Both the position numbers and the translations under genes were made by a program. Shown piece after piece: positions 13,520 through 37,075 of a DNA stretch of 37,227 nucleotides. The DNA lies in NCBI GenBank assembly GCA_028277265.1, contig JANQGP010000274.1, positions 1-37,227 on the forward strand. The letters run 5' to 3'. The DNA comes from Woeseiaceae bacterium (GTDB lineage Bacteria; Pseudomonadota; Gammaproteobacteria; Steroidobacterales; Woeseiaceae). Within the stretch, counting starts at the first letter, position 1; each line of letters begins with the position of its first letter. The notes beneath the pieces are model-generated. The model worked only from the letters and a program-made list of their open reading frames with translations. It ran no database searches and was not told where the DNA came from.

Positions 13520-14935
13520 CTACTCGAAGCACTGGGCGAGGAAGGGGTTCAACAGCCGTTTCTGCGGGTCCAGTTGCTCGCGGATCTTGCGGAAAAAGGC
13601 GAGCCGGTTGGCATAGATCTGTTTGCCGTATTCGGCCCGCATGGCGCGCGACTGATTGAACAACGGGGTGCCGCCCCAGTTCTCGGCGAACTGCGCGAGG
13701 TCGATGACGAAGTCTTCCCAGCCCTTGTCGACCGTCGATGATACCTGCAGCGCAACGAGCGGCTCGTCGAACGACGGCGACAGCACGGCCGACGTGTCAC
13801 GTGCGACACGGTGGCCAATAATCGGCAGGTCGCTCCGGTAACCGGCGCCTTCCAGCGTCTGCTCGCAGAAGTCACGGAATGCCTTGATGACGAGCGAGAA
13901 ATCGGTTGCCGGGAAACACCACGCCGAGTCCAGTACGTTGCGCGCCTTGTGACGACGGCGCCGGCCGCTGGCAGTGACGTTGTTGCCGTTACGCACGAGG
14001 CGGGTGTTCACGAGTCCGTGGGTTGCAGCACTGATTCCGTCCATGAGCCGGTACTTGACCGACGGAATCGGCATCACACGATTGAGCGACCGGAACACGT
14101 TGGGGAGGACCGTGCTTTCTCCCCAGTCCTTGATCTTCCATGGCGTGTCCCAGGCGTTGCCCGGCGAGTCCTCGTAGCGGCGAAGGTCGAGGTACACGCG
14201 GTCCTTGTGCGGCAGGAGGCAGAACTTCATGCCGACGTCGCGGCTGGCCAGGCGATCGACGACGTTGGCAAACGTATCAATGTCCATGCTGCGGTGCTTC
14301 GCCGAAAACGTCGCAATCGGCCGGACGCGGAGCGTGACCTCATAGATCGCGCCGAGCATGCCGTAGCTGAGGCGGACCGTATTGAGCAAGTGTTTCTGTT
14401 GCTGCGTGACTTTCATCAGCTTGCCGGCCGGCGTCACCAGCTTCATGCTGATGGCCTGCGAGGACAGGTAGGTCGACCGCGAGCCGATGCCCGGTCCCAT
14501 GCAGGGCGATGCCACGGCGCCTCCGACCGTCCGCTCCATCTGGTCCAGATTGCCGTCGAGTTCCAGGCCCTGCCTTGCCAGCTCGGACACGAGGGCGCCC
14601 AGGCGGACGCCGGCCTGGACCGTGACGGTGTGGTAATAGTTGTCGATGCCGAGTATGCGATCGAGGCCGGTGGTCTCGACGATCGTGCCGGTCACGACAT
14701 CGTTGCAGTCGGTCGACGCGCTTCCGGATCCGCGCACACGGATCGGTGTCGGCACCCGGTTGGCGGGGTCGAAGCAACGCATCAGGTCGTTGAGCGTTCT
14801 CGGCTTCAGCACCTTTGCCGGGGCGGTGCGGCGAACGAAACGTCCTGTGTCGCGAAATCTTGGTGAAGCCATCCGGGTCTCCAGCTCGTAGTCGATGCCA
14901 AAGACACGTGAGGCGCAACGTGCTGAGCGTTGCAA
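13520..14935 (-). CDS. FAD-linked oxidase (VAO/PCMH-type FAD-binding, D-arabinono-lactone-oxidase-like C-terminus)
   Basis: RVRGSGSASTDCNDVVTGTIVETTGLDRILGIDNYYHTVTVQAGVRLGALVSELARQGLELDGNLDQMERTVGGAVASPCMGPGIG; start may be Met22 at 14872. Confidence 0.85.
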   Translation of the reverse strand: MQRSARCASRVFGIDYELETRMASPRFRDTGRFVRRTAPAKVLKPRTLNDLMRCFDPANRVPTPIRVRGSGSASTDCNDVVTGTIVETTGLDRILGIDNYYHTVTVQAGVRLGALVSELARQGLELDGNLDQMERTVGGAVASPCMGPGIGSRSTYLSSQAISMKLVTPAGKLMKVTQQQKHLLNTVRLSYGMLGAIYEVTLRVRPIATFSAKHRSMDIDTFANVVDRLASRDVGMKFCLLPHKDRVYLDLRRYEDSPGNAWDTPWKIKDWGESTVLPNVFRSLNRVMPIPSVKYRLMDGISAATHGLVNTRLVRNGNNVTASGRRRRHKARNVLDSAWCFPATDFSLVIKAFRDFCEQTLEGAGYRSDLPIIGHRVARDTSAVLSPSFDEPLVALQVSSTVDKGWEDFVIDLAQFAENWGGTPLFNQSRAMRAEYGKQIYANRLAFFRKIREQLDPQKRLLNPFLAQCFE

Positions 14936-15132
14936 TTTCGCAGTGGCGGCCCCGCTGTCATAGGTGCGACCCTTAGACCGGTAGCTTTGCGACGCTGTCT
15001 TTCGACAGGTGTGCCTTTGTCAAACGAGCTATGATCCTTGCACATTAAAAACGGCCGCGCAACGACGCCGTTCGCAGGCCCGATTTAGTCAAATGGCGCG
15101 CATGACATAAGGGATCGAGCGACCGGATTCGC

Positions 15133-34315: not shown

Positions 34316-34588
34316 TTGATCAGGAAGGCGGTACATTTCACGTACAAGGCAGCCCGACGCATCGTCGTCGGTGTCGTCGGTGCGACCGTGTTGCTGCTCG
34401 GCATCATCATGATAGTGACGCCCGGACCCGCACTCGTGGTCATCCCGATCGGCCTTGCGATCCTGAGTATCGAGTTCACATGGGCGAGAGCCTGGCTCCG
34501 GCGCCTGCGGGAATCGATAAGTACGCGCAACAACAACGACCTCGGGCAGCGGGCCGAGTCTCACCGCCAGCGCGTCACGAACGACTAG
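34316..34588 (+). CDS. PGPGW-like small transmembrane protein
   Basis: RRIVVGVVGATVLLLGIIMIVTPGPALVVIPIGLAILSIEFTWARAWLRRLR; TTG start. Confidence 0.75.
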   Translation: MIRKAVHFTYKAARRIVVGVVGATVLLLGIIMIVTPGPALVVIPIGLAILSIEFTWARAWLRRLRESISTRNNNDLGQRAESHRQRVTND

Positions 34589-34617: not shown

Positions 34618-34647
34618 AAAAAAAAGGGCGCCGGAGAACCGGCGCCC
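34618..34647 (-). terminator. Intrinsic (rho-independent) terminator
   Basis: Minus strand GGGCGCCGG-TTCT-CCGGCGCCC-TTTTTTTT: perfect 9-bp stem, 4-nt loop, U8. Confidence 0.92.
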
Positions 34648-34800
34648 GAGTTGATGCGGCAGGGGGGGAATTGCCGCCGGGCCATCGAGGCCCGTTCACG
34701 CCGAACACTGCCGGCGCATTTTCCGGTCCGGCCCGCCAGGTCGTCAGGGGGAGAGAAGATCCTGGCGGGTGTCCGACCGGAAGGGGACTCTGCAGGTGAG
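34618..34800 (-). ncRNA. Candidate structured 3'-UTR sRNA with C-rich loops
   Basis: Minus strand: long hairpin (34721-34782) with loop ATCTTCTCTCCCCCTGACGA; hairpin CGGGCC-N5-GGCCCG (34678-34694); hairpin GCGGCA-ATTCCCCCCC-TGCCGC (34656-34677); then the terminator. Confidence 0.5.
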
Positions 34801-34802
34801 GC

Positions 34803-35084
34803 TTACTCGTTTCCTGCAATCAGCGTAGAACTGGTGTCCGCCAGCCGGATATCAAGGTCTATCAGCACATCCCGTGCGATCGATTCCGCGGCGCGGGCCG
34901 CAGCGTCTTCGCTGGCTTTTTCCGCGATTCTGAGCGCGCTGGCCGCCGCATCTTCTGCGACCGCCGTGTTGGTGACGTCCCGGGTTTCCTTTGCAAGGGC
35001 ATCTTCCGCGGCAAAGGAAACGCCGATCAGGACGACCACCGCAGCAAGCAGCGCCAGGTGGTTTTCCAGATTCTTCAGTCTCAT
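34803..35084 (-). CDS. Small Ala-rich exported/membrane-anchored protein
   Basis: 93 aa MRLKNLENHLALLAAVVVLIGVSFAAEDALAKETRDVTNTAVAEDAAASALRIAEKASEDAAARAAESIARDV...; SD-like GAGGAAA upstream; sigma-54 promoter upstream and terminator downstream. Confidence 0.75.
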   Translation of the reverse strand: MRLKNLENHLALLAAVVVLIGVSFAAEDALAKETRDVTNTAVAEDAAASALRIAEKASEDAAARAAESIARDVLIDLDIRLADTSSTLIAGNE

Positions 35085-35147
35085 CGTCGTTTCCTCGTTT
35101 CAGTGTCAATTCTGCGTCGGCCTTTCGACCGTGTTCGATCATCGTAT

Positions 35148-35163
35148 TGCACAAGCCATGCCA
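35148..35163 (-). promoter_or_regulatory. Sigma-54 (-24/-12) promoter for the small Ala-rich gene
   Basis: Minus strand TGGCATGGCTTGTGCA against consensus TGGCACGN4TTGCA; GG and GC invariant dinucleotides correctly spaced. Confidence 0.7.
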
Positions 35164-35209: not shown

Positions 35210-35264
35210 TTACGAAAATCCGTAAATTACGAAAAATCGTGAGACTATTTACGGAATATCGTAT
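35210..35264. promoter_or_regulatory. Three tandem operator-like palindromes (candidate UAS for the divergent enhancer-binding protein)
   Basis: TTACGAAAATCCGTAA (35210-35225), TTACGAAAAATCGTGA (35227-35242), TTACGGAATATCGTAT (35249-35264). Confidence 0.65.
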
Positions 35265-35275
35265 AGACTGCGCAA

Positions 35276-37075
35276 ATGATCGCCCACCAGGACTATGAAT
35301 GGCTGTTTCGCAAGGCGCCCGTGATGTCCACCTCGATTGCGGAGGACGGTACCTACCTCGACGTCAATGACGCGATGCTGGAGCGCCTCGGCTACTCGCT
35401 CGAGGACATGGTGGGCAGACGGCCCGAGGATTTCGTCACGCCCGAAACTGCCGAGCGCATCGAAGGTGAAATGCGTCCGGCGATGCGCCGCCGCGGCAGA
35501 CTCGAAAACACGCCCGTGAGCTTCGTTACCGCAACCGACGAGATCGTCGACTGCGTGACGAACGCGTTCATCGAGTTCGACCGTGAAGGCGAGTTCGTCC
35601 GCACGATCGCGACGTACACCGAGGCGTCCGATCAGGCACGCGCGAACTACAAGTACCGTGCCCTGTACCGCTCGACCCCCGCCATGTTGCACACGGTCGA
35701 TGGCGACGGCCGCATCGTTACCGTGACCGACCACTGGCTCAGCAAGCTCGGTTTCACGCGCGACGAGGTACTCGGGCGCCCGGTGACCGATTTCATGAGC
35801 GTTGCCGACCAGCGCAAGTACCGCGACGGCCGACTCAAGGAGCTGATTGCCGAAGGCGAGTTCAACAACCTCGAGCGACAGATGGTCACCAAACAGGGTA
35901 CGACGATCGATCTCGTCATGTCGGCGATCCCGCACTACGACGAGGACGGCGCTGTCGATCGCCTGCTCGTCGCGTCCAAGGACGTGACGTCGCGCAACCG
36001 TGCCGAGCGCGAACTGCGACGCACCCTCGCGGAAAACGCCCGGCTGCGCGAAGAACTGCAGCTCGAACGCGACTATTTGCGCGAAGAGGTCAACGTCGCG
36101 ATGAACTTCGGACGCATCGTCGGGACGAGCCAGGCATTGCGGCGCATGTTGAAGAGAGTCGAGGCCGTTGCCGAGACGCCCGCCAGTGTCCTGTTGCAGG
36201 GCGAGTCAGGGGTCGGCAAGGAACTCGTCGCGAGGGCCATCCACAATCGCAGCCCGCGCGCCGACGGGCCGCTGGTCAAGGTGAACTGCGCCTCGATCCC
36301 GAAGGAGCTCTTCGAGAGTGAGTTCTTCGGGCACGTGAAAGGCGCTTTTACCGGCGCGCACCGCGATCGCATCGGTCGCTTCCAGCTCGCCGACGGCGGC
36401 ACACTCTTCCTCGACGAAGTGGGCGAGATTCCGATGGAACTGCAGGGCAAGTTGCTGCGCGTCCTCCAGGAAAGCGAGTTCGAACGGGTCGGCGACGACG
36501 TGACCCGATCGGTCGACGTACGTGTCATCGCGGCGACGAATCGCAATCTCGAGAAACTCATCGTCGAGGGCGAATTTCGGGAAGACCTCTTCTACCGGCT
36601 CAGTGTTTTCCCCGTCGAAGTCCCGCCGTTGCGAGAGCGCGGAGACGATATCGTGCAGCTGGCGCAGCACTTCCTCGAGCAAACCTGCAACGACTTCGGA
36701 CGCGAGCCGTTGACCCTGACGCGCAGTCACGCCGCCAGCCTGAAAGCGTACGACTGGCCCGGCAACGTTCGCGAACTCAAGAACGTCATCGAGCGTGCCG
36801 TCATCCTCTCGCCGGGCAAGGTGCTGCGACTGGACCTGTCCCTGCCCGGCGTGAGTCCGCAATCCGACGGCGCTGCGGCGCCGGAGTCGCAGGACGACGA
36901 TATCCTGACGGACAACGAGATGCGCGAGCTGCAGAAAGCGAATATCGTAAAGGCCCTGAAACGGGCCAATTGGAAGGTCTCCGGCACGGGCGGCGCGGCA
37001 GAGCTGCTCGGCGTCAGGCCGACGACCCTTGCGGACCGGATCAGGACGTTCCGAATCAAACGACCCGCGAAATGA
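35276..37075 (+). CDS. Sigma-54-dependent transcriptional regulator (PAS-PAS-AAA+-Fis HTH)
   Basis: [15 protein letters not shown] Walker A, GAFTGA loop, [13 protein letters not shown] Walker B, C-terminal Fis-type HTH; two N-terminal PAS-like repeats. Confidence 0.96.

Follow-up and report, generated by a model that had tools for sequence, protein, structure and literature searches.

The window analyzed here, a stretch of 37,227 nucleotides from a Woeseiaceae bacterium, raises the question of whether a set of hairpins on its minus strand, two of them with C-rich loops, belongs to a regulatory RNA and, if so, what would turn that RNA on, what else it would encode and which mRNAs it would reach. 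The original prediction described four hairpins downstream of a small open reading frame (ORF) as a candidate small RNA (sRNA) whose loops pair with Shine-Dalgarno (SD) regions under sigma-54 control. All four are present letter for letter on the minus strand between 34782 and 34618. The first, HP1, has the stem CCCGCCAGG/CCTGGCGGG (34769-34761/34740-34732) and the loop ATCTTCTCTCCCCCTGACGA, and it is enclosed by an outer stem in which TTCCGGTC (34782-34775) pairs with GACCGGAA (34728-34721). Outer stem and HP1 together occupy 34721-34782, with a C5 run in the loop at 34751-34747, and were delimited from sequence, fold, covariation and loop conservation. HP3, CGGGCC-TCGAT-GGCCCG, follows at 34678-34694 on sequence and covariation, and HP4, GCGGCA-ATTCCCCCCC-TGCCGC, at 34656-34677 on the same four kinds of evidence as HP1, with a C7 run at 34668-34662. 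The series ends in a Rho-independent terminator found by a terminator scan, GGGCGCCGG-TTCT-CCGGCGCCC with T8 (U8 in the RNA), at 34618-34647. A fifth small hairpin, termed P2 and additional to the original four, lies between HP1 and HP3 at 34698-34717 and is recognized by fold and covariation.

The minus strand folds far more stably than its composition would suggest. Over a 211-nt stretch the fold reaches -107.1 kcal/mol (z -5.63), and none of 200 dinucleotide shuffles was equally stable. A plus-strand RNA was considered and rejected, as its fold is weaker (z -3.03) and the U-tract suits the minus strand only. Within the predicted full transcript of the window species the two C-runs have an unpaired probability above 99%, and across predicted transcripts they are unpaired with probabilities of 0.96 and 0.90, compared to 0.36 for all C residues.

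Comparison among relatives indicates that this structure is under selection. In an alignment of 79 copies with 36 base pairs, double changes occur in 27 of the 36 pairs, and 280 cells show a double change. Column shuffles give 119.8 +/- 10.4 such cells, and no slid register gives more than 100. The alignment was fitted to a model, which favors a covariation signal, yet both the shuffled and the slid controls fall far below the observed count. The compensatory covariation by which the original prediction proposed to be judged is thus strong. Stems are rewritten among species, for example as GCCAGG/CCTGGC, GATCAGG/CCTGATC and GTCCGGGG/CCCCGGAC, and the loops are kept: the CUC and CCCC columns of the HP1 loop are 97–100% conserved compared to a mean identity of 64% in the HP1 stem, and the CCCC columns of the HP4 loop are 96–100% conserved (79 copies each). 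A C-run of at least four is present in HP1 in 79/79 and in HP4 in 77/79 aligned copies, so that the loops are C-rich in relatives, as anticipated. Exposed and conserved C-runs in hairpin loops, the defining feature of C-loop anti-SD riboregulators, therefore appear to be present in this family of sequences. A cryptic coding region in the RNA core was also considered and rejected, as its length differs between copies in all phases and stops occur in most of them.

The other loops bear on a different possible function, in which the RNA would mainly titrate a CsrA/RsmA-type protein through GGA in its loops, like other activator-driven Csr/Rsm RNAs. The HP3 loop is often AGGAN in relatives, and GGA is found in the P2 loop of 57/79 copies, in the HP3 loop of 49/79 and in both loops of 44/79. 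GGA in multiple hairpin loops, as expected of a titrating RNA of the RsmY/CsrB type, is therefore a feature of only these 44 copies, and the window species has it in neither P2 nor HP3, whereas almost every copy retains the C-runs. Titration as the main role is accordingly quite improbable.

The terminator of relatives consists of a GGCGCC- or GGAGCC-type stem followed by a T-run. Many relatives (including loci L071, L084, L088 and L139) carry an extra conserved branched domain (ACCGCTCCGTGTCGGATCGGCCCGCTGA...) inside the terminator stem, which is absent from the window species. A loose regular expression placed this domain in about 50 of 77 loci, an unreliable count given that the expression also scored the window locus. 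On the far side of the terminator, a gene for a PGPGW transmembrane protein (34316-34588, plus strand; Pfam 3.2e-20) runs convergently into it, and antisense traces of this gene seem to come after the RNA in many relatives.

What would turn the RNA on is suggested by the DNA upstream. The activator, the small ORF and the sigma-54 promoter to which the original prediction alluded are all present. The activator gene (35276-37075, plus strand, divergent from the RNA) encodes a protein of 599 amino acids of PAS-PAS-sigma54 AAA+-Fis type according to Pfam, with Sigma54_activat at 3.4e-72, two PAS stretches and HTH_8. A pattern match to a sigma-54 promoter, TGGCATGGCTTGTGCA, lies on the minus strand at 35148-35163 and places the predicted transcription start near 35137. 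Between promoter and activator, pattern matching also identified three enhancer-like palindromes of the type TTACG-N6-CGTAA, to which no strand is assigned: TTACGAAAATCCGTAA (35210-35225), TTACGAAAAATCGTGA (35227-35242) and TTACGGAATATCGTAT (35249-35264). Their centers are located approximately 80, 98 and 120 nt upstream of the predicted start.

This arrangement is nearly invariant. The promoter letters TTGGCA...TGCA are kept in 79–81 of 81 loci and TGGCA...TGCA in all 81; the search expression fixed part of the promoter but left the preceding T, the CA after GG and the T and A around GC open, and these positions are invariant all the same. The number of palindromes between promoter and activator is three in 79 loci and four in the remaining 2. 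The proposed sigma-54 link is thus borne out: the promoter is near-invariant, and each of the 81 loci has three or more enhancer palindromes. In 12 whole genomes the tandem-palindrome pattern matches essentially this locus alone, which points to a regulator dedicated to this locus and perhaps also acting on its own gene. A conserved -24/-12 promoter with enhancer sites beside an activator gene is what a sigma-54-controlled RNA with its own activator would be expected to have, and it is found here. Qrr, CrcZ, GlmY and NrsZ are regulatory RNAs that an enhancer-binding activator likewise drives from a -24/-12 promoter. The window locus differs from them in that it has no Rfam match at gathering score, its activator is adjacent and divergent, and its RNA carries an ORF.

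That ORF, taken from the ORF list, occupies 34803-35084 on the minus strand and encodes 93 amino acids with a hydrophobic N-terminus of signal-peptide or membrane type, preceded by the SD sequence GAGGAA. The order on the minus strand is promoter, ORF and then hairpins. The product has no Pfam or NCBIfam match. An ORF with an SD-like site occurs at the same position in 81/81 loci, in size classes of about 25–37, 45–52 and 81–108 amino acids, and the shared N-terminal segment has a dN/dS of ~0.14 in frame compared to >1 in shifted frames, which indicates that the small ORF is under purifying selection. ORF and RNA are both constrained and are flanked by one promoter and one terminator, for which a single transcript, as in dual-function RNAs of the RNAIII or SgrS type, is predicted. 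The RNA is probably the 3′ part of one predicted transcript of ~520 nt that also encodes the small protein. The sRNA candidate as first proposed is upheld by the sequence tests, with the correction that it is most likely this 3′ part.

Since the ORF is equally constrained, the protein may matter as much as the RNA or more. Taken to its limit, the small protein would be the sole functional product, and the hairpins would serve its mRNA only as a stabilizing 3′ UTR and a terminator. Structured 3′ UTRs are known to protect mRNAs, and the universal ORF with its SD site and low dN/dS fits such an arrangement. A protective 3′ UTR needs stems, however, and not two invariant loop C-runs amid rewritten stems. 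Moreover, about half of the species have a protein shortened at its C-terminus to 30–52 amino acids, and their RNA is still complete. A locus that serves the protein alone is consequently unlikely, though less so than the titration of a CsrA/RsmA-type protein.

Because the RNA probably shares its transcript with a small protein, the layout resembles RNAIII more closely than a stand-alone sRNA. RNAIII of Staphylococcus aureus is about 0.5 kb long, encodes a small membrane-active peptide and directs C-rich loops against SD regions. These C-rich loops have been described in PMC2837412. The window RNA shares the length of ~0.5 kb and the combination of a small membrane-type protein with C-rich loops that would act on SD regions, but it differs from RNAIII in phylum, promoter system, sequence and fold. 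The small protein showed no relation to delta-haemolysin by any test made.

As far as sequence searches indicate, almost every genome of the genus retains the locus, and it also occurs in further genera of Woeseiaceae. The activator is present in 70/73 genomes of the genus, and a covariance model found the RNA beside the activator in 46 genomes of the genus and in 8 Woeseiaceae genomes outside it. Nearly all genomes have a single RNA match; G022 and G245 have a second one, which consists of pieces at contig ends, as expected for a split or duplicated assembly. Outside the genus, a 369-genome sample of the class, searched with stricter filters, gave no match to the RNA. The sole out-of-family match, in G235 (activator 68% identical), was set aside as probably a mis-binned contig.

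The activator is absent from G162 and G230, which belong to a Woeseiaceae genus with reduced genomes. G162 (genus g24, about 1.8 Mb) also has no match to the RNA or to Hfq, and activator, RNA and Hfq have possibly been lost jointly there. Those genomes with the RNA that were checked encode Hfq. This does not imply that the RNA depends on Hfq, and sX13 of Xanthomonas provides a precedent for Hfq independence (PMC3771888).

The Rfam search proposed for the locus was run, and no family reaches its gathering score there. Two weaker matches were examined and rejected. Membership in the alphaR8 family (MmgR/suhB RF00519, SisA-D) is contradicted by a score of 27.9 bits on the window copy against a gathering score of 41, with no match in six relatives at E values up to 0.3; SorY of Rhodobacter (RF02651) scores 29.5 bits over the last hairpins and terminator against a gathering score of 111, with relatives unmatched. 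The alphaR8 sRNAs share with the window RNA a C-rich single-stranded core (UUUCCUCCCU) and a Rho-independent terminator, but the window RNA has two C-loops in hairpins, an ORF and putative sigma-54 control. Elsewhere in the window, a c-di-GMP-I riboswitch (14942-15025, minus strand, 68.2 bits) immediately precedes an ORF on the same strand (13520-14935, up to 471 amino acids), which by eye resembles an FAD-linked oxidase.

The closest likeness among sRNAs is to sX13, which uses C-rich loops to repress mRNAs with G-rich start regions independently of Hfq (PMC3771888). Like the window RNA, sX13 has stable stems with apical C-rich loops, and the mRNAs it represses are G-rich near the start (PMC3771888). 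It is a 115-nt sRNA for which the description consulted mentions no ORF (PMC3771888), whereas the window locus combines a conserved ORF with a sigma-54 promoter and a neighboring activator gene. The likeness is one of architecture, and homology is claimed neither in the original prediction nor here. No sequence relationship to RNAIII or to sX13 was found; by analogy, the functional kind would be that of the C-loop anti-SD riboregulators, to which sX13, RNAIII and RepG belong.

Which mRNAs the loops might reach was approached through ribosome-binding sites. The HP1 loop is complementary to GGGGGAGAG. Among 45 ORFs of at least 100 amino acids preceded by GGGGGAGA-N1-11-ATG in 12 genomes, 16 encode TonB-dependent receptors, even though only 28–54 receptor genes per genome were counted in the three genomes surveyed. 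GGGGG occurs in the ribosome-binding region of 29/70 Woeseiaceae receptors compared to 0/65 other genes (p 1.5e-10), where start codons were set by a heuristic and the exact fractions are approximate. Most receptor G-runs end 4–10 nt from the start codon. The genes with loop-matching ribosome-binding sites thus appear to be a non-random set of mRNAs, and this part of the proposed SD pairing stands; the pairing itself is what we infer.

The set is not specific to genomes that carry the RNA. Control receptors from related families without a detectable RNA copy are led by G-runs in 22/69 cases compared to the 29/70 in Woeseiaceae (p about 0.13–0.16). A Woeseiaceae-specific receptor excess, seen at p 0.009 with the first 30 controls, disappeared when the control was enlarged to 69. 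The flanks of the C-run contribute no detectable added pairing specificity. Since control receptors are almost as G-rich and the flanks are uninformative, the link to receptors lacks specificity for this RNA, and G-run sites on receptor genes are characteristic of the order more widely. The RNA could exploit such sites, which makes the receptors a lead as targets, but co-occurrence is not a demonstration. G057 and G059, from other families of the order, have GGGG receptor sites in 10/16 and 9/17 cases and no detectable RNA copy; an unrelated C-rich RNA or another cause may account for these. Outside the receptors, an aldehyde-dehydrogenase-like gene has the identical leader GGGGGAGAGTGACGCATG in two species (G000:C233:4595 and G029:C6:148352; loci L221 and L184) and is a candidate target of the HP1 loop.

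Precedents make receptor targeting plausible: in addition to sX13, Caulobacter SisA, with its C-rich core, represses TonB-dependent receptors (PMC12559287), and ChvR represses the receptor ChvT (PMC6237742). Caulobacter also provides a precedent for a different partner, as CrfA sponges the C-rich-core SisA-D sRNAs (PMC12559287). By the same principle, the partner of the C-rich loops in the window RNA could be another small RNA, rich in G, with no direct action on mRNAs. An entire class of genes already offers ribosome-binding sites with G-runs, however, and such a sponge pair is very unlikely, the least probable of the explanations considered.

The explanation favored here is direct action on mRNAs. 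A signal would reach the PAS-domain sigma-54 activator, which, on strong sequence evidence, would bind the three palindromes and turn on the -24/-12 promoter. The first part of the resulting RNA of ~520 nt would encode a small protein, either secreted or anchored in the membrane, and the part after it would form hairpins with two C-rich single-stranded loops, closed by the Rho-independent terminator; the RNA might also be processed to a shorter sRNA. By base pairing with trans-encoded mRNAs at ribosome-binding sites that contain G-runs, the loops would keep translation from initiating, and the mRNAs of TonB-dependent receptors are the best present candidates for such repression. Comparative sequence data underlie this scheme, namely the conservation of the locus, its covarying structure, the constraint on C-loops and ORF, the promoter with its enhancer-like sites and the enrichment of G-runs on receptor genes. 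They support the interpretation first proposed, and a family-wide, dual-function regulatory transcript of Woeseiaceae whose C-loops act on G-run ribosome-binding sites is on balance the probable reading. A more far-reaching version, an RNAIII-like master RNA in Gammaproteobacteria that combines an envelope protein with C-loops silencing a large share of the TonB-dependent receptors, is tentative and rather doubtful.

Woeseiales make up 1–22% of the 16S sequences from marine sediments (PMC7082342), and a search of the open-access literature found no study of small RNAs in Woeseia. With a single-copy RNA that is tied to a sigma-54 activator of its own and two products under separate constraint, the locus is a ready entry point into regulation in this group. 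If true, the proposed mechanism would extend C-loop riboregulation to a new lineage, in an RNA whose sequence shows no detectable relation to the known cases. Action of the loops on G-run sites, if it occurs, would also go some way toward explaining why TonB-dependent receptors in this group are marked by such sites. And if the RNAIII-like version were true, one signal would remodel nutrient uptake in a dominant bacterial family of the sea floor.
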